Shown here: positions 41,498 through 64,000 of the stretch, one piece after another
Layout: each line of letters begins with the position of its first letter
Numbering within the stretch: the first letter of the stretch is position 1
Assembly: GCF_002153605.1 (NCBI RefSeq)
Contig: NZ_JOPG01000005.1
Coordinates: 62,001 to 126,000, forward strand
Length of the DNA stretch: 64,000 bases
Direction of reading: 5' to 3'
DNA from: Acetobacter malorum
GTDB lineage: Bacteria; Pseudomonadota; Alphaproteobacteria; Acetobacterales; Acetobacteraceae
Notes under the pieces: generated by a model
Database searches by the model: none
The model's input: only the letters and a program-made list of their open reading frames with translations
Told to the model about the DNA's origin: nothing
Made by a program: the position numbers and the translations under genes

Positions 41498-41538
41498 GGC
41501 ATGAGGGCTTCTGGCAAAACGCCGGAGAGCTGAGCAGG

Positions 41539-41571
41539 AGGCCGCCCGGTTTAGCCCGTGGTGGCCTTTTT
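41539..41571 (+). terminator. terminator after the small acidic protein gene
   Basis: AGGCCGCC and GGTGGCCT form an eight-base stem with one G-T pair, followed by five T. The next gene's ribosome site follows at once. Confidence 0.65.
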
Positions 41572-41591
41572 GTTTGATGGAAGGACGCAGG

Positions 41592-42449: not shown

Positions 42450-42596
42450 CCTGCCAGAGAGGCGTGCGGCCTTTGCCTCCGCGCCTGTTGCCCTTAGTGT
42501 TTGATTGAGCCACCTCTTGAAACAGGAGCGTCCTTTCGCCCTGTGTGCGGAGGGGGAGTGCCTCCGTCTTTCCCGCCTGAAACACCCGAGAACAGC

Positions 42597-43472: not shown

Positions 43473-43518
43473 CAGGCGGCAGGGGCAGGGTCTTGGGCGC
43501 AAGGAGCAAACACGCGGC

Positions 43519-44780: not shown

Positions 44781-44924
44781 AGGCAGGATATCTTTTTAAA
44801 AAGGTTACTGTCTTTATGGTCTTGCCGTGTTTCTTCTTTCCGTAAAACATGGCAATACGAAAAGGCGCTGCATCTGGATCCCCCGGACTTTGGCGGCCGC
44901 CATCCTGAAGCAAGGAGCCTGTTG

Positions 44925-45431: not shown

Positions 45432-45448
45432 ATTTTGGGATGAGATGT

Positions 45449-45490
45449 GGCGCAGGGGTATGAAGAGGCCTTAAGCCTCTCGCCTGCGCC
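45449..45490. other. two-tier hairpin between convergent genes
   Basis: Outer arms GGCGCAGG / CCTGCGCC (8 bp) and inner arms AGAGGC / GCCTCT (6 bp) are separated by an internal loop. It sits between two convergent stop codons and lacks a T run on either side. It is similar in plan to the hairpin at 24294-24338 and probably ends both transcripts. Confidence 0.45.
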
Positions 45491-45508
45491 CATCGTTCTG
45501 TCAGTCGC

Positions 45509-46621: not shown

Positions 46622-46629
46622 GCCCGGCC

Positions 46630-48804
46630 TTACTCAGTCATCAGCGTGAGTGCCCAGCGGACCGGGCGCATGGTCGGAGTGGATGAGGCTGCGTCAGCCG
46701 GTTTGCTGGAGGATGTGGGCGCAGAGGCCTCGTGATCTGTGAGACTTTCCATCTGTGGTGCAGGGTCAGTACCCGCACCATTTTCGGCAAACAGAGTCTC
46801 GGCCATGCTCGGTGTTTCCTGCGTGACCGGTTCGGAAGTGTCCGTATGGCTCAGGCCGCTCGTGCTGGCGGCCTGATACGGCATGCTGTCGGCGGGAGGG
46901 GCGTCATGCAGGAGCGGGCTGAAGGCATCCTCTTCGCTATCCTGTGGAGCGGCGGGGTAGGGGTGGCCGTCTTGCGTATAACCTTGCTCGTCTGTCTGGC
47001 CGTAAGCGTGGTCTGCATAGTCAGGTGCCGTGTCGTGCCCGGTCGTGGCTTCGTTTTCCGCCGGATAGGCCTCGTGCTCTGGTGCTGCGGGAGTCTCCCC
47101 GTAAAAAGCGTCCTGCTCCGGCGAGGTGCCGGTATGCTCGCCAGGATATGCGCCACCGTCTTCCGGGTGGGGTTCGTCCTGCGTAGGCGCTTCGGCGTGG
47201 TCTGCGTTGTCCGCTTCGGTTTCCAGAGCCTCTTCTTCTGCGGCAGCGCGTTCTTCAGGAGGTTCTGGTGCTTCGGGCGGGCAGAGGACAATTTGCAGGG
47301 AGTCCACGCGCTCACCGCTGCCCAGATAAACGCTGTCTTCCAGATAGGCGGGGACGTTGGCCTGAAACAGCCAGCTTTCCTCGTGCGTGTAGAGCAGGAA
47401 GCCGTGTTCAATTTCTTCCACGGTAATTTCAGGGTGCAGATGGAACCGCACACAGAAATCCCGGCTCTCTGTGCCTTCCAGTGCTTCCGCTCCGCGCAGG
47501 GTCTGGCCATCTTTGCCCAGATAAAGCTGGCGGGAGTACACGCCGCCGCCCTGTGGCTTATAGCCATCATGCGTCATATGCAGCCAGTGCGCCCCATCCT
47601 GCGAGGCCTGCGCCCGGGTGACGGTTGGTCTGCGGGTAATAGCCCCGCTCTGGTTGCGCGTAATGGGGGAGAGCGTGCCCATTTCCAGCACGGAATGGGC
47701 TGCCGGGACGCGCAATGCTTCAGCCCAGCCGCGCTGTGTGCTGGCCCCGCAATTGACGATAATCCGCTGGCGTCCAGAAGAGAATTCAAATGAGAGCATG
47801 CCAGCATGGGCCGTGCTGTCATACCCCGCCGGGGCGGGGCCTGCGGCATCAGCAAACAGCATGGTGCGGCCACTGGTCAGGCGGATATACCCGCTTTCCG
47901 GCTGGCTGGCGGCAACGACGCGCCCGCGGGAGGCGCGATTGAGCACTTGCTCGATCAGTTGCGGGTCACGCTCGCGGCTGCCGTTAAACAGCATCAGCCC
48001 GCCATCCCCATGCCGCATGGCGCGCAGGGCTGGCGCGGCACGGTCTGCTACTTCCATCAGGCGGGTCGGCAGAGGCAGGCGGGCGGTCTGGAGAATGCTG
48101 AGCATTTCCGCCAGTTCCCGCACGGCCTGAAACTGGTCTTCCGGGCAGCGGGTGATGTGGCTGCCATCAGCAAGAAACTGCTGATCAATTTCCTGATCGA
48201 TCAGCTTGAGATAGCGGGACAGAAATTCCGGATGGTCAGGAATGGCAACAGCAACGGCCAGCAGGCCCTTCAGGGCTGTCAGTGCACGCCAGCCACGGGC
48301 TTCCTCCGGCATCAGCGCCATGATGGAGCGCGCTTCCATAATCAGCGCGGCCATCAGGTTCTGCCGGAAATTATCATCCGCGGCGGCGGCGAAAAATTCG
48401 TAATAGGAGAGCCATGCGGCCAGACGCGCGCCGGTTACGGACGGGTCAGAAATCGGGCGTTCAGAGGCAGGCTGGCCAATCCATGTGGCGACCATGCTGC
48501 GCGCCTTGATGCGGGCGGATTCCGCACCCAGTTCCCGCAGGTCCCGCAGCCAGGTAAAGCCTTGCAGCCAACGGCGATAGGCTTCCGGCCAGTTGGGGTT
48601 GTCCCACTGCAAATGCTGGAGGTTGCGCACAACGCCTTCAAACAGGCTCTGGTTCCGCACCAGCCGCTCACCCACCAGAGGGTCCCCCGGCCAGAGGTCT
48701 CGTAATGTCAGGGCCGGTGCGGCAGGCACACGACTAAAACCACCCAGCGGGTTCCGCATGGCAAAGGTCAGACGGGCATCACGGGTCCAGCGGCGCAGGG
48801 GCAT
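46630..48804 (-). CDS. heparinase II/III family protein with long acidic insert
   Basis: A 724-residue protein. Residues about 30-310 are the alpha-toroid of heparinase II/III-like proteins (FTWLRDLRELG, GWRALTALKGLLAVAVAI, DGSHITRCPEDQFQ). Residues about 310-510 are the beta-sandwich (GYIRLTSGRTMLFADAAGPAP, RIIVNCGASTQRGWAEALR, VRFHLHPEI). Then about 200 residues of low-complexity Glu, Asp, Pro, Ala and His sequence are inserted before a final strand, VRWALTLM, that normally follows directly. It may bind or cleave an acidic polysaccharide; no signal peptide is evident. It neighbours rpe and rsmB, a common alphaproteobacterial setting. Confidence 0.82.
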   Translation of the reverse strand: MPLRRWTRDARLTFAMRNPLGGFSRVPAAPALTLRDLWPGDPLVGERLVRNQSLFEGVVRNLQHLQWDNPNWPEAYRRWLQGFTWLRDLRELGAESARIKARSMVATWIGQPASERPISDPSVTGARLAAWLSYYEFFAAAADDNFRQNLMAALIMEARSIMALMPEEARGWRALTALKGLLAVAVAIPDHPEFLSRYLKLIDQEIDQQFLADGSHITRCPEDQFQAVRELAEMLSILQTARLPLPTRLMEVADRAAPALRAMRHGDGGLMLFNGSRERDPQLIEQVLNRASRGRVVAASQPESGYIRLTSGRTMLFADAAGPAPAGYDSTAHAGMLSFEFSSGRQRIIVNCGASTQRGWAEALRVPAAHSVLEMGTLSPITRNQSGAITRRPTVTRAQASQDGAHWLHMTHDGYKPQGGGVYSRQLYLGKDGQTLRGAEALEGTESRDFCVRFHLHPEITVEEIEHGFLLYTHEESWLFQANVPAYLEDSVYLGSGERVDSLQIVLCPPEAPEPPEERAAAEEEALETEADNADHAEAPTQDEPHPEDGGAYPGEHTGTSPEQDAFYGETPAAPEHEAYPAENEATTGHDTAPDYADHAYGQTDEQGYTQDGHPYPAAPQDSEEDAFSPLLHDAPPADSMPYQAASTSGLSHTDTSEPVTQETPSMAETLFAENGAGTDPAPQMESLTDHEASAPTSSSKPADAASSTPTMRPVRWALTLMTE

Positions 48805-48897
48805 CAGGCAGGGAGTGCTCCGAAGTGAGAGGGCAGGGAAGACAGCGGGTCTGTCAGACGTGATAAAGCCCTGAGCAAAGGGGCGGAATGATCTGCA

Positions 48898-49569
48898 TCA
48901 TGCTGTAACGTGAGAGCGCAAAGCGTCTATGGCGGCGGCGTAGTCCGGCTGAGCGTAAATGGCACTTCCGGCAATCAGCACATCCGCTCCGGCCTCTATC
49001 GCCAGCGGGGCGGTTTTCGGGTCAATTCCGCCATCTACGGCCAGACGGATGTCCCGGCCTGTGGCCTTGATCATCTCCCGCAGGCGGCGGATTTTGGGGA
49101 GCTGGCTGGTCAGAAATTTCTGGCCGCCAAACCCAGGGTTGACGCTCATCACCAGAATAACATCCACCAGATCCAGAATTTCGCTCACAGCTTCTGGCGG
49201 GGTAGCCGGGCACAGCACAATGCCGGGTTTGGCCCCAAGCGCGCGGATATGCTGGAGCGAGCGGTGGGCATGCGGCCCGGCCTCAATGTGGATGAGGATA
49301 TGGTCCGCACCCGCTTTTGCGAAGGCTTCCAGATACGGGTCCGCAGGCTGGATCATCAGATGCACGTCAAACGGCAGCGTGCTGTACGGGCGCAGGGCTT
49401 TGACGACCTGCGGGCCGAAGGAGATGTTGGGCACAAAATGCCCGTCCATCACGTCCAGATGAATCCAGTCTGCCCCGGCATTGGCCACGGCCTGCACTTC
49501 CTCGCCCAGACGGGCGAAGTCGGCGGCAAGAATGCTGGGGGCAATAAGAGGGCGGGTTACGGAGTGCAT
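48898..49569 (-). CDS. rpe: ribulose-phosphate 3-epimerase
   Basis: A 223-residue TIM-barrel enzyme interconverting ribulose-5-phosphate and xylulose-5-phosphate in the pentose phosphate pathway, the main sugar route in acetic acid bacteria. [54 protein letters not shown] and VDGGI are all present, giving metal ligands and phosphate site. I use the ATG at 49569. Confidence 0.96.
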
Positions 49570-49632
49570 AACTTTTGTTATCCGCAATCCCGCCGCCCGA
49601 CGCAACTCTGTTAAAGCGCGTTTGGAAGATTG

Positions 49633-50961
49633 TTACGCAGGTATGATGAAGCGGGCTGCAAAAAACCCGTCCATGCTGCCTTTGTCCAGCCATAGGCCCG
49701 GATGCGTGCGCAGCCAGCCTTCCGGCGTAAGGGCTTCCGGCAGAAAGGAAAGTTCTTCCGGCGTAAAGGGGGAGGGGACCAGCCCCATCTCCTGAGCAGC
49801 ACGGGCACGGGCCGGACCTTCCTCATCCTGCAGGGAGCACACGGCGTAAATCAGCCGCCCACCGGGGCGGAGCATGGATTTGGCCGCAGCCAGAAGCCGG
49901 TCCTGCCCGGCTGTCAGCGCATTCAGATCACGCGGACGTTTGACCCACAGCACATCCGGGTGGCGGCGCGCCGTGCCTGTGGCGGAGCAGGGTGCATCCA
50001 GCAGAATGGCATCAAACAGCGCATCGGGTTTCCATGTCGCGGCGTCGTCCTGCACAATCTGCACAGGGTAGGCCAGCCGCGCCATGTTCTCCTGCAAGCG
50101 CAGCAGACGGGTGGCGTTCTGCTCCACAGCCGTCACGTCCGCGCCGGTGGCGGCAAGCTGGGCGGTTTTCCCGCCCGGAGCAGCGCAGAGATCGGCCACC
50201 CGTTCGCCCGGTTTGGCCGCCAGCAGGCGCGCGGGGAGGGTTGCGGCGGCATCCTGCACCCAGAATGCGCCTTCCTCATAACCCGGCAGTTCCGTTACGC
50301 GGGTGCCAGCGGGAAAGCGGACGGAACCGTTGGGTAGTTCCTCGCCGCCTTCCGGTGCGGTTGCGCCGGGGCGGAGGGTAATGTCCAGCGGGGCTTCATG
50401 GCTAATCCCCTGAGCAATGGCGCGCGCGGCCCCTTTGCCCAGCGTGTTCCAGGAACTCCACAGCCATGAGGGAATATTCAGGCGCGCCTGATCGAGCCCC
50501 TCCAGCAGAGCCGGTCCCTGATCGGCCACCTTGCGCAGCACAGCATTGGCCAGCCCTGCAAACGGGGCCAGCTTACGGCGGCGCAGCAGAGAAACTGTGG
50601 TGCCGACGGCAGCATGCGGCGGCGTTTCCAGAAACAGCAGCTGCGCGCAGCCCATCATCAGCGCCACGCGCACAGGCTCCGGCGGTTCCTTGCGCAGGAA
50701 GGGTTCCAGCACCGTGCGCAGCGTGCCCATGTGGCGCAGCGTGGCGGCGGCCAGACGGTGAGCCGCTGCACGGTCACGCGGCGGGGCCTCGTGCTCGTTG
50801 GCGGAGCGGGACAGGGTGGTTTCCAGCATGCGCCGGTGTTCCACCACGCCGCACAGGATATCAAACGCAACGTCCCGCGTGGGGTCAGCAGGCTGTGGGG
50901 CGTTGTTGCGGCGCGCTGCATTGCGTCTGGGGTTACGGGGGCGGCGGGGTTCTGCTGTCAT
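49633..50961 (-). CDS. rsmB: 16S rRNA (cytosine-967-C5)-methyltransferase
   Basis: A 442-residue enzyme with an N-terminal NusB-like RNA-binding domain (about 25-165) and a C-terminal RsmB/Fmu methyltransferase domain. SAM binding is at ADLCAAPGGKTAQLA, and the two catalytic cysteines are in LLDAPCSATGTARRHPD and IYAVCSLQDEEG. The first 25 residues are an Arg/Asn-rich tail. Confidence 0.93.
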   Translation of the reverse strand: MTAEPRRPRNPRRNAARRNNAPQPADPTRDVAFDILCGVVEHRRMLETTLSRSANEHEAPPRDRAAAHRLAAATLRHMGTLRTVLEPFLRKEPPEPVRVALMMGCAQLLFLETPPHAAVGTTVSLLRRRKLAPFAGLANAVLRKVADQGPALLEGLDQARLNIPSWLWSSWNTLGKGAARAIAQGISHEAPLDITLRPGATAPEGGEELPNGSVRFPAGTRVTELPGYEEGAFWVQDAAATLPARLLAAKPGERVADLCAAPGGKTAQLAATGADVTAVEQNATRLLRLQENMARLAYPVQIVQDDAATWKPDALFDAILLDAPCSATGTARRHPDVLWVKRPRDLNALTAGQDRLLAAAKSMLRPGGRLIYAVCSLQDEEGPARARAAQEMGLVPSPFTPEELSFLPEALTPEGWLRTHPGLWLDKGSMDGFFAARFIIPA

Positions 50962-51037
50962 CAGCTCACTATCTGTTCAGGCAATCAGGTCAGGCCATAA
51001 AGGCGGAGGAAAATGGCAGGCCAGACCTGCCGGAGCA

Positions 51038-51664
51038 TTACGCCACCAACAGGGCGGCGTCTGCTGATGTGGGGGCTTGGCTCTTGTCCAGATACCGGCG
51101 CAGCACGCCGGGGTAGAGCTGGTGTTCCTGCCGCAGCACCCGTGCAGCAAGGGCGTCAGCCGTATCACCCGGCAAAACAGGGACTGCTGCCTGCCCGAGA
51201 ATAGGGCCTTCATCCATGCCTTCCGTTACAAGATGCACGGTGCAGCCGTGGATGCGCACGCCGGCTTCCAGCGCGCGCTCATGCGTGTGCAGGCCGGGGA
51301 AGACAGGGAGCAGGCTGGGGTGAATGTTCAGCATTTTCCCCGCCCACTGGGTGGTGAGGAACGGGGTCAGCAGGCGCATATAGCCCGCCAGACAGACCAC
51401 TTCCGCTCCGGCTTTCCGCAGGGCGGCATCTACGGCGCGTTCATGCGCCTCACGGTCTTTTTTATACAGGCGGTGGTCGATCGCCACGGTCTCAAGCCCT
51501 GCGGCGCGGGCCATGTCCAGCCCCGGCGCGTCTGGTTTGTTGCTCAGCACAAGGCAGATGCGGGCCGGAAAATCCGGCTGTTTGCAGGCCTCAATCAGGG
51601 CCGTGGCGTTACTGCCCCGGCCACTGAGCAAAATGGCGACCGGGGTTTTAGGCGTCTCACTCAT
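51038..51664 (-). CDS. purN: phosphoribosylglycinamide formyltransferase
   Basis: A 208-residue enzyme of purine synthesis transferring formyl from 10-formyl-THF to [21 protein letters not shown], the catalytic block [36 protein letters not shown] and the late [10 protein letters not shown] match the family. It overlaps purM by four bases (ATGA). Confidence 0.95.
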
Positions 51665-52743
51665 GCTGCGTGAAAATCCGGGGATGCAACCATCTTCAGG
51701 CCAGCCTTGGCGGCGCTGTCAGCAGCTTTGGCGATATGGCCAATCAGCGTGCCTTCCTCGCCCAGTCCTTTCAGTCGGGCGAGAACTTCGTCCGGTTTCG
51801 GGGTGATCAGCACCATGCCTACGCCACAGTTAAACACGCGCAGCATTTCTTCATTTGCCACGTCACCAGTGCGGGCCAGCCAGTTGAAGACGGGCGGCAC
51901 CGGCCATGCGGCGTCAATCACGGCGTCCAGCCCGTCGGGCAGAATGCGAGGCAGGTTGCCCGGCAGCCCCCCGCCGGTGATGTGTGCTGCGGCATGCAGC
52001 AGGCCAGCGCGGTGCAGATCCAGCACCGTGCGGACGTAGAGTTTGGTGGGGGTGAGCAGGGCCTCACCCAGATTTTTGCCGGGTGCGAAGGCTGCCGGGT
52101 CCGTCCAGGCCAGATGGGCATCGGCTACAATGCGACGCACCAGAGAATAGCCGTTGGAATGCACGCCGCTGGAGGGCAGGGCGATCAGTGCGTCACCCTC
52201 TGCAATACCAGCTGGCAGCAGGGCGGAGCGTTCTGCGGCCCCAACGGAGAAGCCAGCCAGATCATAATGCCCATCGGCATACATGCCGGGCATTTCTGCC
52301 GTCTCACCGCCTACCAGCGCACAGCCGGACTGCTCACAGCCCTGCGCAATGCCGCGCACAACCTTGGCGGCACTTTCAACAGACAGGCGGCCCGTTGCAA
52401 AATAATCAAGGAAGAAGAGTGGTTCCGCGCCCTGCACAATCAGGTCGTTCACGCACATGGCGACCAGATCAATCCCCACGGTTTCATGCAGACCCGTTTC
52501 AATGGCCAGCGTGAGCTTGGTGCCCACCCCGTCCGTGCAGGACACCAGCACCGGGTCTTTAAAGCCGGCGGCTTTCAGGTCGAACAGAGCACCGAATCCG
52601 CCCAGCCCCCCCATGGTGCCTGGGCGGTCTGTTGCCTTGGCTGCGGGTTTGATGGCGTCAATCAAAGCTTCTCCGGCTTCAATGTCCACGCCAGAGTCAC
52701 GGTAGGTGAGGCGGGAAGAGGGAGAACTGGAAGAAGACGTCAT
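51661..52743 (-). CDS. purM: phosphoribosylaminoimidazole cyclo-ligase
   Basis: A 360-residue AIR synthetase. [66 protein letters not shown] and [15 protein letters not shown] are hallmarks. The start at ATG 52743 gives the normal length; the open frame upstream to 52944 is not conserved. It is divergent from hdaA, a pairing conserved in Alphaproteobacteria. Confidence 0.95.
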
Positions 52744-52845
52744 GACAGGTGCTCTTGGTCTGAAAGGGGTCGATGTAACGGATCGGGTAGGGTAGGAATC
52801 CCTGAGGACAGTCTTTACGGCAGGTGAAGCAACACGCAAAGCGGC

Positions 52846-53613
52846 ATGAAACGGATTACGGAAACAAAAGAGGCCGCACAGCAGCCTGTGGCGGACGGAA
52901 AGGAGGGGGGAGTGACCGGGCAGATTGCTCTGCCGTTCGCTCACCGCCCCCGATTCGGACGCTCAGACTTTGTGGCGGCTCCCTCCAATGCGGCGGCACG
53001 CGGCTGGGTGCTGGATGCGGAAGCCATGTGGCGCTGGCCCGAAGGCCGTATGGCCCTGTGGGGGGAAAGCGGCACCGGCAAGACGCATCTGCTCTCCGTC
53101 TGGGCAGCGCGGCATGGTGCGCCCGTTATTGAAGGCCGCCGCCTGAATGAGCAGGACGTGGCCAATCTGTTTCATGAAGGCGGGTTCCGCGCGCTTGCGC
53201 TGGATAATGCCGATCAGGTGCGGGAAGAAGCCGATCTTCTGCATCTGATCAATCTGGTGCGGGAGCGGCGCATGGCGTTGCTCATGGCGGGGCGGGCTTC
53301 CCCCGCGCGCTGGCGTGTGTCTCTGCCGGATCTGGCGAGCCGTCTGCGGGCGACGTCCTCCGTGCCGATTGGGCAGGCGGAGGAAGAACTGTTGCGGCGG
53401 CTGTTCCTGCGTTTGCTGGCGGAACGGCAGATGGTGGTGGCCCAGCCGGTGACGGAATGGCTGCTGCGGCGTCTGCCCCGTAATGCCGGGGCGATTCGGG
53501 ATATGGCGGCGCGGCTGGATCAGGCCGCACTGGCTTCGGGCGAGAAAGTGACGCGGGCGCTGGCTGCGGGCGTTCTGGAAACTCTGCTGGAAGAGGACGC
53601 AACGCGCTCTTAA
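52846..53613 (+). CDS. hdaA: DnaA regulatory inactivator HdaA
   Basis: A 255-residue AAA+ protein related to DnaA but lacking its DNA-binding domain. With the sliding clamp it promotes ATP hydrolysis by DnaA and so limits re-initiation of replication. The clamp-binding motif is QIALPF at 26-31 and the Walker A is GESGTGKT at 73-80; the Walker B is the weak LALDNADQ. Sensor II appears near [18 protein letters not shown]. Position next to purM and ahead of ppk agrees with HdaA. Confidence 0.88.
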
Positions 53614-53698
53614 CGTCTTGCTCTGTGGGCGTGTCTGCGTCACTGTGCGGAACGATTTCGTTATAGTGTAACATTAACCTGAAAGTGGTTTCTGCATC

Positions 53699-55798
53699 AT
53701 GAGCAGCTTTTTCAAGCGATCTCTGTTGCCTCTGGCGGTGCTGGCGTGCGCTCCGGCGGTTCTTCCCTCCATTCCCTTCGCGCATGCGGATGAGGGGATG
53801 TGGACCATGGACCATCTGCCCGCAGACCTGATGAAGCAGCGTTACGGCTTTACGCCCACCCCCGCGTGGACAGAGCGCGTGACCAAGGCCTCCGCTCGTC
53901 TGGCGCTGGGCTGCTCGGCCTCGTTTGTTTCGGCTGACGGGCTGGTAATGACCAACCACCATTGCGCCAATGAATGCCTTCAGCAGCTTTCCGGTAAAGG
54001 GAAGAACTACTTTCAGGACGGTTACAGCGCCAAAAGCCCGGCGGATGAGCAGCGCTGCCCCGCCATGGAGCTGAACCAGCTGGATAGCATCACGGACGTG
54101 ACGGACCGGATGCAGACGGCCCTGCGCGGCAAGGATGGTGCGGCCTACACCACGGCGCGTCAGGCTGAGGAAAGCGCGATTGAAAAAGAATGCGCCAAGG
54201 ATGACCCCAAAAAATGGCGCTGCGATGTGATCAGCCTGTATCACGGGGGTCGCACGGCGCTGTATCGTTACCGCCGCTATCAGGACGTGCGCATGGTGAT
54301 GGCGCCGGACCAGAACGCGGCCTTCTTCGGCGGGGACCCGGATAACTTCAACTTCCCGCGTTATGACCTCGATATGGCGTTCATGCGGGTCTATGAAAAC
54401 GGGAAACCGGCCAAGGTTGACGCCTTCCTGCCGTTTGACGCTGCAGGCCCGAAGGAAGGGGAGCTGGTGTTCACCTCCGGCAATCCGGGGTCTACGGAAC
54501 GTGAAGTGCCGCTGGCCGATCTGGAATTTTCCAGAAACGTGACTGTGCCGTTCATTATCGACAACTATTCCGCACTGGATGGCGCACTCTGGCAGTACAG
54601 CCGGGAAAGCACGGCGCATCATCAGGAAGCACAGGAACGGGTCTTCGGGATTGAGAACAGCCTGAAAGTCTATCGTGGCCGCGTGGATGTGCTGTCCGAC
54701 CCCAAACTGCTGGACGCCAAGGCAAAAAATGAGGCCAGCCTGCGCGACTGGATCAATGCCGATCCCAAGCGTAAGGAAGCCTATGGCGACCCGTGGGCGA
54801 AAAACGCACAGGCGCTGGCCGTTAAGAAGCGTATCTTCAAACCTTACGTGATGCTTGAAGGCGCTTTTGGGATTCAGGGTGAGCTGTTCCAGTATGCTAA
54901 ACTGCTGGTGCGCGCTGCAAACGAGCGCCAGAAGCCGGATGCCGAACGTCTGACAGCGTATCATGATGCCCGTCTGCCTGCGCTGGAAGCCGAACTCGGT
55001 TCCACGGCTCCGGTCTATTCGGATCTTGAAAAGACAGAACTCGCTTTTTCTCTGACCAAACTGCGCCAGGTGCTTGGCGCAGATGATGAAATGGTGAAGC
55101 TGGTTCTGGGTAAGGCTGCCCCGGATGATCTGGCTGAAACGCTGGTCAAAGGCACGAAACTGGCAGACCCCAAGGTGCGTCTGGAGCTTTGGAAAGGCGG
55201 TGCAGACGCGATTGCTGCCTCCAAAGACCCGATGATTGTGCTGGCCCGCAGCATCGAACCGCAGACCCGTGCCCTGCGTAAGCAGATGGATGATGAAGTC
55301 GCTGCTCCGTCTCGTCAGGCGAGCGAAGCGATGGCCAAGGCTCGCTTTGAGCGCGATGGTGTGTCGTCCTACCCGGATGCCACGTTCACGCAGCGTCTGT
55401 CTTTTGGTCAGGTTAAGGGCTGGGATGAAAACGGAAAAGCTGTGCCAGCCTTTACGTATTTCTCTGGCCTGTATGATCGCGCAACCGGCTCTGACCCGTT
55501 CAAGCTGACCAAACTCTGGCTGGACGCCAAGGCGCACGTCAACATGAAAACCCCGTACGATTTTGTCTCCACCAATGACATTATCGGCGGCAATTCCGGC
55601 TCTCCGGTGATCGACTCTCAGGGCCATGCCGTGGGTCTGATTTTTGATGGCAACATCCACTCTCTGGGTGGGGACTTCTATTATGATGAAACCACTAACC
55701 GCGCTGTTGCGGTGGATACAGCCGCCATCATGGAAGCGCTGAAAGTGGTTTATAAAAATCAGGCGCTGGCGAACGAACTGTCTCAGGGGCATCTCTGA
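53699..55798 (+). CDS. S46-family dipeptidyl-peptidase
   Basis: A 699-residue secreted serine peptidase of the DPP7/DPP11 family, removing dipeptides from peptide N-termini. A signal peptide ends near residue 30 (PFAHA). The catalytic His is in MTNHHCANE (about 87-88), the Asp in FNFPRYDLDMAF and the Ser is Ser633 in IIGGNSGSPV. An inserted helical domain lies between. GTTATAGTGTAAC at 53660-53672 upstream includes TATAGT, a good -10 box. This peptidase sits inside the otherwise conserved hdaA-ppk interval. Confidence 0.9.
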   Translation: MSSFFKRSLLPLAVLACAPAVLPSIPFAHADEGMWTMDHLPADLMKQRYGFTPTPAWTERVTKASARLALGCSASFVSADGLVMTNHHCANECLQQLSGKGKNYFQDGYSAKSPADEQRCPAMELNQLDSITDVTDRMQTALRGKDGAAYTTARQAEESAIEKECAKDDPKKWRCDVISLYHGGRTALYRYRRYQDVRMVMAPDQNAAFFGGDPDNFNFPRYDLDMAFMRVYENGKPAKVDAFLPFDAAGPKEGELVFTSGNPGSTEREVPLADLEFSRNVTVPFIIDNYSALDGALWQYSRESTAHHQEAQERVFGIENSLKVYRGRVDVLSDPKLLDAKAKNEASLRDWINADPKRKEAYGDPWAKNAQALAVKKRIFKPYVMLEGAFGIQGELFQYAKLLVRAANERQKPDAERLTAYHDARLPALEAELGSTAPVYSDLEKTELAFSLTKLRQVLGADDEMVKLVLGKAAPDDLAETLVKGTKLADPKVRLELWKGGADAIAASKDPMIVLARSIEPQTRALRKQMDDEVAAPSRQASEAMAKARFERDGVSSYPDATFTQRLSFGQVKGWDENGKAVPAFTYFSGLYDRATGSDPFKLTKLWLDAKAHVNMKTPYDFVSTNDIIGGNSGSPVIDSQGHAVGLIFDGNIHSLGGDFYYDETTNRAVAVDTAAIMEALKVVYKNQALANELSQGHL

Positions 55799-55824
55799 GG
55801 TCTGACGTCTGAGCAGCGCATGAG

Positions 55825-55864
55825 AAACAGGCTCGGAGGGCAACAGCTCTGCGGGCCTGTTTTG
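55825..55864 (+). terminator. terminator after the S46 peptidase gene
   Basis: AAACAGGCTCGGAG pairs imperfectly with CTCTGCGGGCCTGTTT and runs into T residues. It begins 27 bases after the stop. Confidence 0.55.
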
Positions 55865-55974
55865 CGTTTTGCGCAGGCTCTCTGGAATGCGAGCGACATA
55901 AAACCGTAACATGTGTCATTCTTTTCCAGCCGGAAGACTGTACACTATGATGCAGAGACGTGTGAGATGATGAA

Positions 55975-56010
55975 CCCTATGCCCGCAAGGCTGATGCGGG
56001 CAGGATAGGG
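55975..56010 (+). promoter_or_regulatory. stem-loop in the ppk leader
   Basis: CCCTATGCCCGCA pairs with TGCGGGC, a three-base bulge AGG, and ATAGGG around a seven-base loop. All 13 pairs are perfect. It ends six bases before the AAGGGAG ribosome site, so it could affect ppk translation. Confidence 0.5.
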
Positions 56011-56029
56011 TAAAAAAGGGAGAATGGGT

Positions 56030-58294
56030 GTGACGACGGCGCAGGACAAAAAGACGGGTCAATCAGCCGGAGCCAAAGTGCCCGCCCGCAGACGTACTCC
56101 GGCAGTTCGTCGAACCAGAAAAAAGCCGGTCCAGAAAAAAGTGACGCTGGACATGCCCGAGCGGTTTATCAACCGCGAACTCTCCTGGCTGGCCTTTAAC
56201 CAGCGTGTGGTGGAAGAGGCGGATAACGCGCGCAACCCGTTGCTGGAGCGTCTGCGCTTTCTGTCCATCAGTGCCAGCAATCTTGATGAATTCTATTCTG
56301 TGCGTGTGGCCGGTCTTGTCGGGCAGGTGCGGGAAGGGCTGGTGGCGTTCTCACCCGATGGCCTGACCCCTGCCGAGCAGCTGGACGCCGTGCGGGAACG
56401 CTGTGCCCAGTTGTTGCGCGAACAACAGCGCATCTGGGTGGAGCTGCGTGGCCTGCTGGCGGATGCCGGTGTGGTGCTGTGTGAGCCGTCTGATCTGGAT
56501 GAAGCCGACCGCACATGGTTGCACAACTGCTTTATGGACCGCGTTTTTCCGGTGCTGACGCCGCTGGCGGTGGACCCGGCGCATCCGCTGCCCTTCATCC
56601 CCAACATGGGGCTTGCACTCGGCCTGCGTTTGCTGCTGGCGGAAAACGGCGCGTTTGCCATGAACGCGCTGATCCTGCTGCCCGCGCAGGTTGAGCGCTT
56701 TATTCGCCTGCCCAGCAAGGACGGGGCGGGTAACCGCACGGTGCGCTTTATCCGGCTGGAAGACCTGATTACCCTGTGCATGGACCAGCTTTTCCCCGGC
56801 CTTGTGGTAGGGGAAAGCGGTATGCTGCGTGTGGTGCGCGATACCGACGTAGAGTTTGAGGACGAGGCCGAAGACCTTGTCCGTTCCTATGAGAGCGCGC
56901 TCAAACGCCGCCGCCGTGGCGTGGTGATCCATCTGGATATGGAAAAGCGGGTGCCGACAGAGCTGGCGGACGCGATTGCTTCCGGGCTGGACCTGCCGCC
57001 GGAAGAAATTGCCGTCCATTCCGGCATGATCGGCGTGGTGGACCTGAAACAGATGATTGTGGATGACCGCCCCGATCTGCTGTTCCCGCCCTACACGCCG
57101 CGCTTCCCGGAGCGGATTCTGGACTTTAACGGGGATTGTTTTGCGGCCATCCGGGCGAAGGACCTGCTGGTTCATCATCCGTTTGAAAGCTTTGACGTGG
57201 TGGTGCAGTTCCTGCGTCAGGCGGCGCTCGACCCGAACGTGATTGCCATTAAGCAGACGCTGTATCGCACGTCCCGCGACTCTCCCATCGTCAAGGCGCT
57301 GATTGAAGCCGCTGAAGCCGGCAAGTCCGTCACCGCCATGGTGGAATTGCGGGCGCGGTTTGATGAAGAAGCCAATATTCGCCTCTCCCGCGCGCTGGAA
57401 GCCGCCGGTGTGCAGGTGGTGTTCGGCTTTGCGGACCTGAAGACCCACGCCAAGCTCAGTCTGGTAGTGCGGCGCGAGGGTAATCAGGTGCGATCCTACG
57501 CACATTTTGGCACGGGCAACTACCACCCGATTACCGCCAAGATTTATACAGACCTCTCCTTCTTTACCTGCAAGCCGGAGCTGGCGCGGGATTCCGCACG
57601 CCTGTTCAACTACGTGACCGGCTACGCCATGCCGGCCAAGATGGAGGCCATTTCCTTCTCGCCCATCACCATCCGCAGCACGCTGCGGGAGCTGATTGAG
57701 GAAGAAATTGCCCATGTCAAAGCGGGGCGTCCGGGCACTATCTGGCTGAAGATGAATGCGCTGGTGGACCCGGATCTGATTGATTGCCTGTATCGTGCGT
57801 CCTGTGCCGGGGTGCGGATTATCGGCGTGATCCGTGGCATCTGCTGCCTGCGTCCGGGTGTGCCGGGGCTTTCTGAAAATATCCGTATCAAATCGATCGT
57901 TGGGCGCTTTCTGGAACATTCCCGCATTTTCGCGTTCGGGAATGGCCATCGCCTGCCGTCCCGCTACGCCAAAGTCTATCTGTCCTCTGCGGACTGGATG
58001 ACGCGGAACATGGACTGGCGCGTGGAAAGCATGGTGCCGGTCACTAACCCGACGGTGCATGCCCAGATGCTGGGGCAGATCATGGTCTCCAACCTCAAGG
58101 ACAATCTGCAATCCTGGGGGCTGGAAGCCAGCGGCACATGGCGCCGGCTGACGCCGGGGGCGCGGCCATTCTCTGCGCATGAATGGTTCATGACGCACCC
58201 ATCGCTCTCGGGCCGTGGCTCGGCTGCGCATGAAACGCCGCTCCGCGCACCAGCCTCTCTGCCGACGTCAAAAGACCTGATGTTTGATGACTGA
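56030..58294 (+). CDS. ppk: polyphosphate kinase 1
   Basis: A 754-residue enzyme that reversibly polymerises ATP gamma-phosphate into polyphosphate. After a basic N-terminal tail, [20 protein letters not shown] begins the N domain. The C-terminal phospholipase D-like part has [34 protein letters not shown] and [17 protein letters not shown] with the phospho-accepting His, then [10 protein letters not shown] and [22 protein letters not shown] is seven bases before GTG 56030 but only one before ATG 56024, so I favour the GTG. Confidence 0.95.
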
Positions 58295-58376
58295 CCTCAG
58301 CCAGCGGCGCGAGAAAAGCAGAATGCGTGTATTTGGCACCTGTTCTCGGTTTTCGTGAACGATTTTCGGGAGTAGA

Positions 58377-59876
58377 GTGCCGCCCATGCAGACTGATATG
58401 CCGCGCCGCTCGGCCGTTGTTGATCTTGGGTCCAATTCTGTGCGCCTCGTGGTGTTCGAGGGCGTATCGCGCAACCCTGTGCCTATCTTTAATGAAAAGG
58501 CGGTGTTGCGTCTGGGCCGCGGCCTGACAGCAACGGGCAAGCTGAATGAAGAAGGCGTGCAGATGGCTATGGAAGTGCTCAGCCGCTTCCACGCCATTGC
58601 CCGAGCCATGAACGCGGACCCGTTTGAAATTCTGGCCACAGCGGCAGTGCGGGATGCGCTGAACGGGCCGGAATTTGTGGATGCCCTGCGCAGGAACATG
58701 CCGGGTGTGCCCATCCGTATTCTGAGCGGGGAAGAGGAGGCCGATCACTCCGCCATTGGCGTGATGTGCGGCATTCCCGGCGCAAAAGGACTGGTGGCCG
58801 ATGTGGGCGGCGGCTCTCTGGAGCTGATCCGTCTGGCGGAAGATGGTCGCCATGATGCCAATACCCTGCCGTTGGGCGTTATCCGCCTGAGTGACCGCGC
58901 CAAGGGTGATCTTGCCGAGGCCCGTACTCTGGCGGATGAGGATATCGGGCGCGTCAAATGGCTGTCTCAGGTCAAGGGAAACACGCTCTATCTGGTCGGC
59001 GGGGCGTTCCGTGCGCTGGCACGTCTGCATATTGCCCGCATGCAGTATCCGCTGAATATCGTGCATTATTATACGCTGGGGCTGGAAGAAGCGCGGGAGA
59101 TGACCGGCTGGCTGCTGCATGCACAGCGCCGCAGTCTGGAACGTCTGCCCGGTGCCCCCAAAAAACGTCTGGATGATGTGCCGTTTGCTGCCACCGTGCT
59201 GCGCAGATTGCTGCGCAAGGTGCAGCCGGATCGGGTGGTGTTCTGCGTGGATGGTCTGCGGGAAGGGTGGTACATGCTGAATGTCGCCCCGGATTGCCTG
59301 CCGCAGGACCCGATGGACGTTGTGGCGCGGGACATGTGCGCCCGGCTGGGCCGCAGTAACACGCTGCCGGATGTGCTCTGCCGCTGGACCGACGGTTTGC
59401 TACCCAAGGAAACTGCGCAGGAGCAGCATCTGCGCCGCATTGCCTGCCTGCTCTCCGATGTTGGCAGCCACGACCACCCGGAATATCGGGCGGAGCAAAC
59501 CTACTGGCGCATTCTCCGTTTGCAGGGTGTCGGGTTTGACCATGAGTCGCGGGCCTGGCTTTCTCTGGCTCTGGCCGTGCGGTATGCGGCGGACCTCAAT
59601 GCCGAGTTTCTGGCAACGTCTCGCACGCTGCTGAGTGAGGCCGCATGGCGGCGCGCCATTGTGCTGGGGCAGGCGTTGCGGCTGGCCTATTCGCTTTCCG
59701 GCGGGACGGCTGTGCTGCTGGATGGCACGGCTCTGCTGTGGCGGCGCAAGGAGCTGGTACTCAAACTTGTGTCATCTCGTGTTGCTGTGCGCGGGGAAAC
59801 CGTGGGGCGCGGGCTGACCCGGCTGGGGCAGGCGCTGGACGTTCCCACCCGCTTTGAGTCTGATCTGGAAGCCTGA
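58377..59876 (+). CDS. ppx: exopolyphosphatase / Ppx-GppA phosphatase
   Basis: A 499-residue ASKHA-fold phosphatase that degrades polyphosphate or pppGpp. AVVDLGSNSVRLVVFE, the ILSGEEEADHSAIG motif with catalytic Glu, and ADVGGGSLELI form the active site; the C-terminal third is the HD-like domain (IACLLSDVGSHDHPEY). It follows ppk by 82 bases, so polymer synthesis and breakdown are encoded together. GGGAG is four bases before GTG 58377; the ATG at 58386 is the alternative start. Confidence 0.92.
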   Translation: MPPMQTDMPRRSAVVDLGSNSVRLVVFEGVSRNPVPIFNEKAVLRLGRGLTATGKLNEEGVQMAMEVLSRFHAIARAMNADPFEILATAAVRDALNGPEFVDALRRNMPGVPIRILSGEEEADHSAIGVMCGIPGAKGLVADVGGGSLELIRLAEDGRHDANTLPLGVIRLSDRAKGDLAEARTLADEDIGRVKWLSQVKGNTLYLVGGAFRALARLHIARMQYPLNIVHYYTLGLEEAREMTGWLLHAQRRSLERLPGAPKKRLDDVPFAATVLRRLLRKVQPDRVVFCVDGLREGWYMLNVAPDCLPQDPMDVVARDMCARLGRSNTLPDVLCRWTDGLLPKETAQEQHLRRIACLLSDVGSHDHPEYRAEQTYWRILRLQGVGFDHESRAWLSLALAVRYAADLNAEFLATSRTLLSEAAWRRAIVLGQALRLAYSLSGGTAVLLDGTALLWRRKELVLKLVSSRVAVRGETVGRGLTRLGQALDVPTRFESDLEA

Positions 59877-60055
59877 TAAAGCCTTTTTGCCTGTTCCCTG
59901 TCAGGAGCAGATGTGTGCGGGGAGCAGGGCATAGAGGCTCTGCGCCGGCGGGCACAGTCATGGGGCTGGACAAGCTGCGGCGTTCTGGGCACCTTAAATT
60001 TCAGACATCTTCCGGGGATGGGGATTTATGACCAGTAGTCAGGGGAAAAAGTGAC

Positions 60056-62380
60056 GTGTCTTCTGATGAGATAGTCGATCCGACCGTACAGAACGATGCG
60101 TCCGTGCGGCGTGTCCTGCTGCATCTGGTCCTGCCGTTTGGTTCGCTGCTGCTGGTTGTGGGTGCGATTGTCGCCATTGGCCTGCATTCCTACCGCTCCA
60201 CGCGGGCGGGCGTCGTTGCGCTGACCCATGAGCTTCTGGGTGCCGTCCAGCAGAATATTTCTCAGGAAGTCTCAGATTACATCATGCCCGCTGTGGCGGG
60301 GAATACCATTGCCAGCGGCATGATTGCCCATGCGCCGTTTCAGGTGGCGGACCGGGTGTTTAATTCCTACGGCGCGGCCATGCTGCAAAGCGTGCCGCAG
60401 TTGCAGTCCTTCTATCTGGGGGATGAAGACGGCCATTTCCGCCTGATTACACGCGGGCCTGATGGTAAAAATCAGGAACGCACCACGTTTGAAGTGCATG
60501 ATGGCAAACAGGTCTATCATCGTGAATTCTACACGAATGATGGTGTAAAAACGGGTGAGGAATATACGGACGCGACCGGGTATGACCCGCGCAAGCGCCC
60601 GTGGTACAGCAATACGGAAGGCAAGACGGACGTCCAGTGGACGCAGCCTTATCTGTTCCCGTCCGCACGCCAGTTCGTCATGACCAGTTCTCTGCGTTTC
60701 AAGGCGGCAGACGGGCATACCTACGTTTTTGCGACGAATATTTCCCTCAATGAGCTCAGCACATTTCTGGACCATCTGAAGGTCGGTAAAACCGGGAACG
60801 CCATTATTCTGGATAGTCAGGGCCGGGTTATGGCGGGGCGTAACATCATGCAGCAGGCGGAAGCTGCGGGGTGGGACCCGAACAAGATGGTGCTGGACCC
60901 CAAAACGCATCCGGTTTTTGCCCGTGGGTATGACCATTATCGGGTACGGGGCTTCGGCCCACGCAGTTTTGAGCTGAACGGCAAACGCTATGTGACGATC
61001 GCGTCGCCGCTGAAAAGTTCTGCCGAGGGCTGGATCTTGCTGCTCTCCGCCCCGGAAAATGACTTTGCCAGCTTTGCGCGCCAGAGCAGCCAGCAGAGTT
61101 TACAGTTTGCCGGGATTATCATTGTCTTCTCGCTGCTGCTGGCCGGGTTCCTTGTGCGGCAGGTGCGGCGTTCGGAACGGGTGGCCCGCAAGCTGGCACA
61201 GCAGAACATGCAGATCACGCATGAAAGTGCGGCTGTGCAGCAGGTTGCCGTCACGCCGCGTCTGTTTGACCCAACGGCAGAACCTCTGGTGCTGACAGAG
61301 CAGCTTGCGCATGTCACGGATGCGCGGCGGGCCAGCGTCTGGCGGTTGCTGCATGACGGGCAGGCGCTGATCTGTGAAGATTCCTATGACCAGAAACAGG
61401 ATACCCACTCCGGTGGCTTTGAAATGTCCCGCGCGGAGCTTGGGGCGTTTTTTGAAGCCATTGAATCCGGTGATGTGCTGAATGTTGATAACGCAGCGAC
61501 GGATGATCGGACGAGGCAGTTCGAGCGTCTGGTCATGCGTGAGCTGGGTACCCGGATGCTCGCCGTTTACCCCATTCATGGGCCAAAGGGCATCAGTGGC
61601 GCATTGGTGCTGGAAGATGCCCATATGGCCCCGCATCTGGTGTATTTTGTAGACCTGATGGCGTCTATCGCGGGCGTCAGACTGGCCGAGACGGCGGATG
61701 AGATTGAAAGCGGGCATGGCCTGCCTGCTGATGAAGTCTCCGGTGCCGTCAATTCTGCCAAACCGCTGCCCGCGCCGCAGTTTGATAATATGCTGATGCG
61801 TGCGCCGCAGGTCTCTGGTGTGACGACGTCCGGGATTTATCCGTCGGTTGCCGTGCTGGTCATCACCTTCTCCGATCCTGTGGTGGATGGAGAGGCAGAA
61901 ACGCAGGCTCTGCTGACGCTGATTAACCAGCTGGCCACGGATGTGCAGCGCATTTCCAAGGAACGCGGCCTGTTTGGCGTGGAAGTGGCCGGCCACCGCA
62001 TGATCTGCATGGCGGGCTGCACCACCGAGGAAGACCCGACCGCCATTATCCGTATTGCCGATGCCGCGCTGACCATGCGGGAAACCTTTATGGCCGCACT
62101 GGCTGCGGCCAATCTGGAACCAGTGTTTGCCATGGGGCTTGATTACGGCGCGGCCTTTGGTGGCGCTGTGGGGGAAGAGCCCAAAGTCTTCAACCTGTGG
62201 GGGCAGACGGTCTCTCTGGCGGAACTGATGGCGCAGGGTGCCACAGATGGCGGCACCATTCAGGTAACAGAGCGTGTGTATCAGGCCCTGCGTGACCGGT
62301 ATCTGTTCCGCTCACGCGGTTCCTTCTTTGCGCCGCATCTGGGCCTTGGCCGGGCTTATGTTCTGGCGGCGCGCCGATGA
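60056..62380 (+). CDS. dCache-GAF receptor with degenerate nucleotidyl-cyclase domain
   Basis: A 774-residue membrane receptor. Helices at about 19-43 and 352-368 enclose a periplasmic dCache ligand-binding domain (DPRKRPWY motif near 177-184). A cytosolic GAF-like domain (about 405-545) and a class III cyclase-like domain (about 596-750) follow. In the cyclase domain the two metal Asp positions are Thr604 and His647, the substrate Lys is Glu643, and the catalytic Asn and Arg are Ser720 and Leu724. It should therefore not make cAMP or cGMP. The fold's pattern (MAG, WGQTVSLAELM) is kept. Its stop overlaps the MlaE-like gene by four bases. Confidence 0.78.
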   Translation: MSSDEIVDPTVQNDASVRRVLLHLVLPFGSLLLVVGAIVAIGLHSYRSTRAGVVALTHELLGAVQQNISQEVSDYIMPAVAGNTIASGMIAHAPFQVADRVFNSYGAAMLQSVPQLQSFYLGDEDGHFRLITRGPDGKNQERTTFEVHDGKQVYHREFYTNDGVKTGEEYTDATGYDPRKRPWYSNTEGKTDVQWTQPYLFPSARQFVMTSSLRFKAADGHTYVFATNISLNELSTFLDHLKVGKTGNAIILDSQGRVMAGRNIMQQAEAAGWDPNKMVLDPKTHPVFARGYDHYRVRGFGPRSFELNGKRYVTIASPLKSSAEGWILLLSAPENDFASFARQSSQQSLQFAGIIIVFSLLLAGFLVRQVRRSERVARKLAQQNMQITHESAAVQQVAVTPRLFDPTAEPLVLTEQLAHVTDARRASVWRLLHDGQALICEDSYDQKQDTHSGGFEMSRAELGAFFEAIESGDVLNVDNAATDDRTRQFERLVMRELGTRMLAVYPIHGPKGISGALVLEDAHMAPHLVYFVDLMASIAGVRLAETADEIESGHGLPADEVSGAVNSAKPLPAPQFDNMLMRAPQVSGVTTSGIYPSVAVLVITFSDPVVDGEAETQALLTLINQLATDVQRISKERGLFGVEVAGHRMICMAGCTTEEDPTAIIRIADAALTMRETFMAALAAANLEPVFAMGLDYGAAFGGAVGEEPKVFNLWGQTVSLAELMAQGATDGGTIQVTERVYQALRDRYLFRSRGSFFAPHLGLGRAYVLAARR

Positions 62381-63270
62381 GTGGCGCGAACGAACCACGC
62401 AGTCCGGGTGGGGAACGGGACCCGATTTTAGAGGCGGACGCCTCCACCCATCCGCAGCACAGGCAGAAATTTGTTCTGCATGAATGGGCGCGGGAGAAAC
62501 TGGCCTGGATCGGCCGCCTGACACGGAAGCAAATCCGCTTTTTCCTGATCATGCTGGGGGCAAGCTGGGGCGTTATCTTTGAGAGTTTTCGCTCTCATTC
62601 CTGGCGACGCACGGTGCGGTACGAGTTCGGCACAACCCTTAACAGCGTGATTGGCGGCGGCCTGATTGCCACGATGTTTGCTGGCACGCTGACGGGTGTA
62701 GCGGCGGTCTCCCAAACCATTTACTGGCTGGGTCTGGCGGGCATGGCCAAGATGACCGGCACCATTCTGATTGATGTGGTTATTCGGGAAATTGCGCCCA
62801 TTCTGGTGGGTATCCTGCTGCTGGGCCGCAACGGTATGCTCTCCGTGACAGAGCTGGGCCTGCTGACAACAGGCGGAGAAATCCGCTCCATGCAGGCGCA
62901 GGGGCTGGACCCGTTTCTGCTGCTGGTCATGCCGCGCACGCTGGCTTTTACCGTGGGCGGCTTTACGCTCGGGATTCTGTTTTCCTTCGCGGCACTGGTG
63001 ACAGGCTATATCATCAGCCGCATGTCCGGCGTGGTGACCAATCCGGTCTGGACGTTCCTCTATGACGTGGTCACCGCCATGTCCCATGCTGATTATCTGG
63101 TGATCCCGCTTAAATTTATTACCGTCGGGTTTGTGGTGGGGCTGGGTGGCTGCCTGACGGGGCTGACCGCTACGAATGAGGATAATCTGCGCACCCTTCT
63201 GCCGCGCGGCTTTTCGCGTGGCATGCTGATTGTGATGGCTGTCAGCGTGCTGTTCAGTCTGGACTTGTAA
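62377..63270 (+). CDS. mlaE: MlaE-family lipid ABC transporter permease
   Basis: A 297-residue membrane protein with five or six helices. The MlaE core REIAPILVGILLLGRNG, TELGLLTTGGEIRSMQAQGLDPF and VMPRTLAF is intact, including the coupling-helix region that docks an ATPase. A 55-residue cytosolic N-terminal extension is longer than in E. coli MlaE. MlaE-type permeases move phospholipids between inner and outer membrane together with MlaF, MlaB and MlaD. It overlaps the receptor gene and is followed after one base by the MlaF-like gene. Confidence 0.87.
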   Translation: MSGANEPRSPGGERDPILEADASTHPQHRQKFVLHEWAREKLAWIGRLTRKQIRFFLIMLGASWGVIFESFRSHSWRRTVRYEFGTTLNSVIGGGLIATMFAGTLTGVAAVSQTIYWLGLAGMAKMTGTILIDVVIREIAPILVGILLLGRNGMLSVTELGLLTTGGEIRSMQAQGLDPFLLLVMPRTLAFTVGGFTLGILFSFAALVTGYIISRMSGVVTNPVWTFLYDVVTAMSHADYLVIPLKFITVGFVVGLGGCLTGLTATNEDNLRTLLPRGFSRGMLIVMAVSVLFSLDL

Positions 63271-63271
63271 G

Positions 63272-63973
63272 ATGGATACACGCACTGCCGGACCACTGCT
63301 GGAACTGAACAAGGCCGTTCCTTCCTTTGAGGATAGCGGCCTGCCACCCGTGCCCTTCAGCATGAAGCTGATGCCGGGGGACTGCATGGTGGTGGAATCC
63401 CGCTCCAGCACCCGGGCCACCATGTTTGCGGATATGTGCTGCGGGCTGGTGCCGCTGGATGCAGGGGCTGTGAAGTTCATGGGGCTGGACTGGGCTGACC
63501 TGCACGACCGGGAAATGAATGCCCTGCGTGGGCGCATAGGTCGTATTACCCGCAGGCCCAGCTGGCCAGAGTTCCTCAACACGCACCTTGCTATCACCCT
63601 CCAGCAACTGCACCATACTACTCGCCCAATGGATGAGGTGGTGGCGGAAGCTGCCCGGCTGGCGGAATGGTTTGGTCTGCCGGGCCTGCCGGTCTTACCG
63701 CCCAGCATGTTGTCCGATTCCGATTTGTTGCGGGCGGCCTGTGTGCGGGCGTTTATAGGGCATCCCCGCTTGCTGCTTCTGGAAGACCCGCTGGAAGCAA
63801 GCCCTGTGGAACTGCAAAATCCGTTTCTCAGTGCGATAACGGACGCGCGGGACAAGGGCGCTGGTGTCATCTGGATGGTGCGTAATAATGCCATCTGGCA
63901 GGGCTACCGACAGGGGATTACGAGTATGTGGCGCCTGGCTGATGACGGGCTTGTAGAAATACGGACGGCATAA
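63272..63973 (+). CDS. degenerate MlaF-like ABC ATPase
   Basis: A 233-residue protein in the place of MlaF. It aligns along the ABC nucleotide-binding fold (LELNKAVPSFEDSGLPPVPFSMKLMPGD, then CCGLVPLDAGAVKFMG) but all motifs are altered. The Walker A is ESRSSTRAT (42-50) with Arg48 instead of Lys and no glycines. The Q-loop Gln is Arg94, the signature is LSDSD (147-151), Walker B reads LLLLED (Glu171-Asp172, reversed order), and the H-loop His is Asn205. ATP hydrolysis is therefore doubtful. The stop overlaps the next ATG (TAATG). Confidence 0.75.
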   Translation: MDTRTAGPLLELNKAVPSFEDSGLPPVPFSMKLMPGDCMVVESRSSTRATMFADMCCGLVPLDAGAVKFMGLDWADLHDREMNALRGRIGRITRRPSWPEFLNTHLAITLQQLHHTTRPMDEVVAEAARLAEWFGLPGLPVLPPSMLSDSDLLRAACVRAFIGHPRLLLLEDPLEASPVELQNPFLSAITDARDKGAGVIWMVRNNAIWQGYRQGITSMWRLADDGLVEIRTA

Positions 63974-64000
63974 TGTTCCAGATCCGCTTAAGACAGAAAG
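63973..64000 (+). CDS. start of a further operon gene, possibly MCE/MlaD protein
   Basis: The ATG at 63973 overlaps the stop of the MlaF-like gene. Only nine codons (MFQIRLRQK) are in the window. In mla operons the MCE-domain substrate-binding subunit follows the permease and ATPase, so MlaD is the best guess, from position only. Confidence 0.4.

Follow-up and report, generated by a model that had tools for sequence, protein, structure and literature searches.

A conserved MCE operon of the Acetobacteraceae with a catalytically degenerate ABC cassette and a dCache-GAF-pseudocyclase receptor

The right end of a 64,000-nucleotide stretch of Acetobacter malorum DNA (the window; assembly GCF_002153605.1, contig NZ_JOPG01000005.1, positions 62,001 to 126,000 of the forward strand) carries the first genes of a five-gene operon. 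Its products are, in order, a receptor with dCache, GAF and class III cyclase-like domains, an MlaE-like permease, an ABC-like cassette with a degenerate nucleotide-binding domain (the pseudo-NBD), an MCE protein with an MlaD domain, and a lipoprotein modelled with a tetratricopeptide repeat (TPR) fold. Across the family Acetobacteraceae, both the gene order and the absence of catalytic residues are maintained, which is more than chance, and both pseudoenzymes are family traits. The system is real and conserved, and the mechanism proposed below is plausible. The reading we favour, held at a little under an even chance, is an MCE lipid-transfer system in which the cassette would be a non-hydrolysing adaptor and the dCache-GAF-pseudocyclase receptor would act by protein contact.

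Two pseudoenzymes in one lipid-transport operon

The pseudo-NBD retains a predicted ABC ATPase fold, with FtsE folds ranking high in the fold comparison, and its match to ABC_tran reaches only 20.9 bits, under the Pfam cutoff of 25. An earlier note, made by a model from the sequence alone, had called it a pseudo-ATPase; it lacks Walker A, the signature, the Walker B Asp and the H-loop His, and this loss proves to be family-wide. The Walker A Lys is present in 0/45 aligned orthologues, the Walker B Asp is replaced by Glu in 42 and the H-loop His survives in two. Neither Walker A nor LSGG occurs in any of 240 database relatives taken from the matches listed (the best 120 of 1,298 and the best 120 of 172). 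As a control, the 30 canonical MlaF loci that match best within the family all keep Walker A and LSGGM. Other residues have become fixed among 120 relatives, with an Asp in the signature (120/120) and an Arg (120/120) and a Trp (119/120) near the Q-loop; R91, D151 and W98 are among the invariant or near-invariant residues of the pseudo-NBD. Against six Acetobacter species, its ratio of nonsynonymous to synonymous substitution rates (dN/dS) is 0.073-0.152. Databases name the protein 'ABC transporter ATP-binding protein' or 'P-loop NTPase family protein', names that, judging by its sequence, are contradicted.

The second pseudoenzyme, described in the earlier note as a dCache-GAF pseudo-cyclase, bears out that description both in its domains and in its catalytic positions. 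Pfam matches the receptor to dCache_1 (37.1 bits, under the cutoff of 45; the orthologues L071 and L076 reach 90.9 and 101 bits), to GAF (32.3 bits, cutoff 22.4) and to Guanylate_cyc PF00211 (56.6 bits, cutoff 21.9), a class III cyclase domain by profile. The dCache domain lies between two predicted transmembrane (TM) helices and is probably periplasmic. In the cyclase domain of the window, D607 is kept and five of six catalytic positions are replaced (K to E643, D to H647, D to N713, N to S720 and R to L724), the metal, substrate and transition-state roles being those that we presume for these positions. Among 41 aligned cyclase domains, the first metal Asp is kept in 28 and the second in two, the transition Asn in three and the transition Arg in two, and the adenine (substrate) Asp in none, with Asn in its place in 39. 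The domain is the best conserved of the three across the 41 orthologues (0.551, vs 0.488 for dCache and 0.501 for GAF), retains an FNLWG motif (N713, W715, G716), and has the lowest dN of the three in 5/6 species pairs, with the lowest dN/dS in only 3/6. Its dN/dS against the six Acetobacter species is 0.015-0.111; that of the flanking ppx gene is 0.044-0.125. Two pseudoenzymes in a single lipid-transport operon, the composition first proposed from this one genome, are thus both conserved across the family.

The permease matches MlaE PF02405 at 108.5 bits (cutoff 22.5) and solved MlaE-type chains at a best E of 1.6e-20. The coupling helix of MlaE connects TM2 and TM3 and contacts MlaF, according to passages of PMC7790496. 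The corresponding segment reads ..QVDAL and ..EIDAL in the two canonical MlaE proteins of the genome, and commonly.G..R.L or.G..R.M in 21 operon permeases, the deepest of which deviate. This divergence hints that pseudo-NBD and permease match each other. The permease had been called an intact MlaE: its family membership stands, and its coupling-helix segment departs from the canonical form. The MCE protein, called probable in the earlier note, shows an MlaD domain past the window end (PF02470, 46.4 bits, cutoff 25.1). The lipoprotein gives weak TPR matches only in Pfam, and its structure model is a TPR superhelix; by a simple pattern the lipobox is absent in 6/48 lipoprotein loci, and the lipoprotein alignment comprises 23 of the 48 loci with a match, selected partly for a visible lipobox.

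Conservation as a unit and distribution

The pseudo-NBD is present in 49/49 genomes of the same genus, at E values of at most 3.7e-70. Across 299 family genomes the receptor is found in 92 (E <= 1e-30), the pseudo-NBD in 91 (E <= 1e-11) and the permease in 90 (E <= 1e-15), and the three occur together in 88. Had homologues of the receptor been found mostly without the mla genes, the link suggested earlier would have lost its ground; instead 88/92 genomes with the receptor also have permease and pseudo-NBD, and in the other four the 3' end of the receptor match falls within 2 to 114 bases of a contig end. Three genomes have the cassette without the receptor (G182, G307 and G337). The match in G182 is weak (4.9e-15), with no other operon gene in 6.9 kb, and was taken as an ordinary ABC protein; the other two are weighed below.

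Such co-occurrence is in part a matter of kinship, and a better test is whether gene order persists where the flanks change. In 41/41 loci from 29 genera the five genes follow a single order, the loci comprising the window and 40 of the other 87 three-gene genomes picked to spread over divergence; in seven of them the lipoprotein was recognised by profile, and one (L054) has about 1 kb between receptor and permease. A set of named loci (the best 80 of 119 confirmed, overlapping in species with the genome set) has all five genes in order in 77/80, the other three being cut by contig ends. Partial matches among the named loci affect the receptor in L122 and L171 and the permease in L122 and L141, and occur also in L178 at a contig end. 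Around the operon, no family of open reading frames (ORFs; at least 110 aa) is common to more than 13 of 34 loci, and the commonest flanking ORFs, biotin-synthase-like, HisI-like and YgfZ-like by eye, lie on the opposite strand. Within 2 to 7 kb of flank, ppx stands upstream in 4/41 loci and a potassium channel downstream in 3/41, the window included in both counts; a functional link to the polyphosphate genes or to the channel was rejected on these numbers.

A second set of 14 odd regions contains one complete operon outside the family (L087) and one within it (L095), two receptorless operons (L088, L089), three broken ones (L096, L098, L099), a lone weak cassette match (L097) and six relatives of the dCache part only. 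In the broken loci several operon genes are damaged, and L098 has every one of the five split or truncated, as though they had been lost together.

Named holders of the locus are Acetobacter, Gluconacetobacter, Komagataeibacter, Novacetimonas, Swaminathania, Asaia, Tanticharoenia, Acidomonas and Gluconobacter, and Kozakia has a match to the cassette, the one gene looked at there. At E <= 1e-30 the receptor is present in 35/102 sampled family genera. Among 337 genomes of the class, five gave a full-length receptor match: four belong to the family, and the fifth, G375, belongs to another family and has the complete five-gene operon (L087), possibly through horizontal transfer. Two other genomes of the genus of G375 matched the receptor in the dCache part only, and in the 27 matching class genomes besides those five the best match is over the dCache part only; at six such loci, fetched with 3.4 to 16 kb each, permease, cassette and MCE protein had no match. 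Five of the six weakly match the cyclase part and keep a K..GD motif, and one is a histidine kinase. With the cassette profile, G375 stands apart among 289 class genomes (6.9e-74), followed by ordinary ABC matches from 1.3e-23. Spread by plasmids is ruled against by a search of 72,556 plasmid records with the pseudo-NBD, in which tblastn at E <= 1e-15 gave no match.

This distribution lends no support to the suggestion that the operon answers the need of acetic acid bacteria for outer membranes resistant to acid and ethanol: only about a third of the sampled family genera have the receptor, and the operon occurs in another family as well. Among the literature matches listed, no phenotype of the operon was found; a term search of the main texts of two Gluconobacter screens (PMC8602642, PMC12041372) and an RNA-seq study (PMC5756330) returned nothing relevant.

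Proposed mechanism and rival explanations

In the mechanism that we favour, an MlaE-like permease dimer in the inner membrane would carry the MCE protein, whose long helical tail would span the periplasm and meet the TPR lipoprotein, whose site is probably the outer membrane. The cassette would dock on the permease as an adaptor with no motor role, ATP hydrolysis having been given up. The receptor would sense a periplasmic signal through its dCache domain, relay the change via the GAF and pseudocyclase domains, and open or close cassette and permease through protein contact. What the sequences establish is the set of five genes and its order, the predicted fold of the cassette, the family-wide absence of catalytic residues and purifying selection; we infer complex formation, docking, gating, lipid movement and the outer-membrane location of the lipoprotein. 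By analogy with MCE systems without an ABC motor, the simplest reading would be an ATP-independent lipid bridge gated by the receptor, with the cassette in the part of an adaptor. The fuller version, to which we give a shade less credence than to the adaptor reading itself, is that an entire ABC lipid transporter now serves as a lipid bridge gated by a ligand and independent of ATP. Its ATPase and a nucleotide cyclase, both stripped of catalysis, would link a periplasmic receptor to an MCE tube that spans the envelope by passing on changes of shape.

Several observations weigh against this mechanism. In one genus (g127; G307 and G337, loci L088 and L089) permease, pseudo-NBD, MCE protein and lipoprotein are present and no receptor was found; the cassette there also lacks Walker A, so that a dead cassette persists without a receptor. 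A tree of permease, cassette and MCE protein, rooted on one distant system, places this pair beside the receptor-bearing L068 with supports of 95 and 96, a placement that argues for loss of the receptor; since the other four genes were kept, the receptor is not always needed. Loss of cyclase residues is not equally complete everywhere: both metal Asp residues are retained in the distant orthologues L071 and L072, and the substrate Lys in 13/41 cyclase domains. An analysis of covariation in 122 operons (effective number 53) yielded no signal that could be used, the intended control between permease and cassette reaching 5.1 at best and a physically unlikely pair, dCache 291 with permease 135, reaching 5.3. 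Finally, a canonical MlaF match (E <= 1e-40) was found in 90/90 sampled family genomes, with Walker A checked in 30, so that an ordinary MlaF could in principle lend ATPase activity.

The main rival, itself unlikely, builds on that last point. The pseudo-NBD would be a placeholder that a trigger from the receptor displaces or shifts, whereupon an active MlaF from elsewhere would dock and drive transport. The ubiquity of MlaF speaks for such an exchange of motors, as does the example of the mycobacterial Mce systems, which share the ATPase MceG and in which the membrane protein Mce1N blocks its binding to the permease (passages of PMC10517005). Against it, the coupling-helix segment has diverged from that of the two canonical MlaE proteins of the genome, as would be expected of a dedicated more than of a shared partner, and the receptorless genus retains its pseudo-NBD. 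A borrowed ATPase in the form of a mixed MlaF/pseudo-NBD dimer is weakened too: the pseudo-NBD has neither Walker A nor signature and, lacking both halves of the ATP site, should form no normal site in a homodimer or with MlaF.

Information might also flow in reverse, which we consider somewhat less probable again. The MCE complex would then sense the lipid state of the envelope, and the GAF-pseudocyclase part would be the output, binding a cytoplasmic nucleotide or a partner protein. The conservation of the cyclase-like domain above dCache and GAF, its FNLWG motif and its low dN (less so its dN/dS) are what such an output would lead one to expect, and the high rank of FtsE folds for the pseudo-NBD points the same way, FtsEX being a system that transmits signals, not cargo. 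The dCache domain, however, argues for the receptor as input, and in the 34 compared loci no downstream regulator turns up repeatedly next to the operon. Slightly less probable still is that the receptor merely shares its regulation with the MCE module, without contact. The genus that lost the receptor and kept the rest would suit this account, which is opposed by the constancy of gene order, against changing flanks, in 41 loci from 29 genera, and by the finding that no full-length receptor homologue stands without the module at E <= 1e-30 in the 337 class genomes. That the operon is a decaying Mla operon is hardly credible and was rejected on low dN/dS, full-length matches in most loci and new invariant or near-invariant residues such as R91, D151 and W98, although some genomes carry broken copies (L096, L098, L099) and L122, L141 and L171 give only partial receptor or permease matches.

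Operon layout and relation to known systems

The three forward-strand ORFs and the junctions described in the earlier note are all present: an ATGA overlap of receptor and permease at 62377-62380, one base between the permease and pseudo-NBD genes (between 63270 and 63272), and TAATG at 63971-63975 joining pseudo-NBD to MCE protein. An ATGA overlap also joins the MCE stop to the lipoprotein ATG, and by layout the five genes appear to be one operon (Table 1). A scan for promoters and terminators gave 0 promoter-like sites (2.1 in shuffles) and three terminator-like ones (4.8 in shuffles).

Table 1. Features of the operon in window positions (1..64000); L004 is the same contig extended beyond the window, with L004:9974 equal to 63973.
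Feature	Position	Strand	Size or residues	Basis and remarks
Receptor	60056..62380	+	774 aa	GTG start; ORF calling and Pfam
Receptor domain order	within 60056..62380	+	TM1 ~24-42; dCache; TM2 ~349-367; GAF; cyclase-like domain ~593-774	
Cyclase-domain positions	61874..62227	+	607 to 724	alignment to mycobacterial adenylate cyclase and 40 orthologues
MlaE-like permease	62377..63270	+	297 aa	Pfam; TM2-TM3 coupling-helix segment unlike canonical MlaE
Pseudo-NBD (ABC ATPase fold)	63272..63973	+	233 aa	without Walker A, signature, Walker B Asp and H-loop His
Walker A-equivalent stretch	63398..63421	+	43-50	alignment
Signature-equivalent stretch	63710..63724	+	147-151	alignment
Walker B-equivalent stretch	63770..63790	+	167-173	alignment; Asp to Glu171
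MCE (MlaD-domain) protein	63973..64923 (L004:9974-10924); in window 63973..64000	+	316 aa	Pfam MlaD
TPR lipoprotein (fifth gene)	64920-65855 (L004:10921-11856)	+		ATG at L004:10921; beyond window

The next gene past the lipoprotein, 129 bases on, has inward-rectifier potassium channel domains by Pfam (L004:11986-12993, 65985-66992). Directly upstream of the receptor, genes for a polyphosphate kinase and a Ppx/GppA-family protein are adjacent at 56024-59876, preceded by a peptidase S46 family protein at 53699-55798 (706.8 bits, Pfam). Elsewhere in the genome, the canonical MlaE-MlaF pair (L005) has no MlaD match on its own contig, and an MlaD-domain gene lies at G000:C94:4836-5069. A second system, on contig C2, has MlaE, MlaF and MlaD matches followed by a lipoprotein-like ORF (by eye), and a separate MCE-domain gene at L220:2971-3888 has no MlaE match on its contig.

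The operon shares with MlaFEDB of the E. coli type an MlaE-family permease, a partner of NBD fold and an MlaD-domain protein side by side. It differs from MlaFEDB in a cassette without Walker A, signature and H-loop, in a longer MCE protein, in the TPR lipoprotein and in the receptor as first gene; a Pfam search confined to the five operon proteins and the gene after them found none of MlaB, MlaC and MlaA. PqiABC and LetAB are MCE lipid-transfer machinery without an ABC motor; their inner-membrane part is PqiA or LetA, whereas the present operon has an MlaE-like permease and a dead cassette. Other Alphaproteobacteria have cyclases (L091, L092) with a related dCache and a class III cyclase domain; these keep DKYIGD and show no GAF domain by Pfam and no permease, cassette or MCE match in the fetched DNA. 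The closest described layout found, in the passages of PMC12436622 available, is Mpc of Brucella, which also combines E, F and D components with an operon lipoprotein and for which a needle across the periplasm has been proposed; its lipoprotein is PqiC-like, in contrast to the TPR superhelix model here, and no receptor was found in those passages. Mce1N resembles the proposed regulation in targeting an MCE permease where the NBD sits, and differs in being a membrane protein where the operon has an ABC cassette (passages of PMC10517005). The earlier note knew of no described system of this composition. No MCE operon with a receptor or a conserved inactive cassette was found among the literature matches listed, as judged by titles and the starts of abstracts, with most subscription papers and preprints outside the scope.

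The dependence of MCE systems on an ABC motor is unsettled, some (Pqi, Let) having none. In the operon described here, the catalytic residues of the motor have been lost in place, its fold has been kept under selection across many genera, and a receptor has been added in front. Sister systems within one cell thereby make it possible to test what ATP contributes to lipid transfer by MCE systems, in hosts that include easily grown acetic acid bacteria, and the operon offers a case in which a sensor receptor may act directly upon a lipid conduit, with no second messenger between them.

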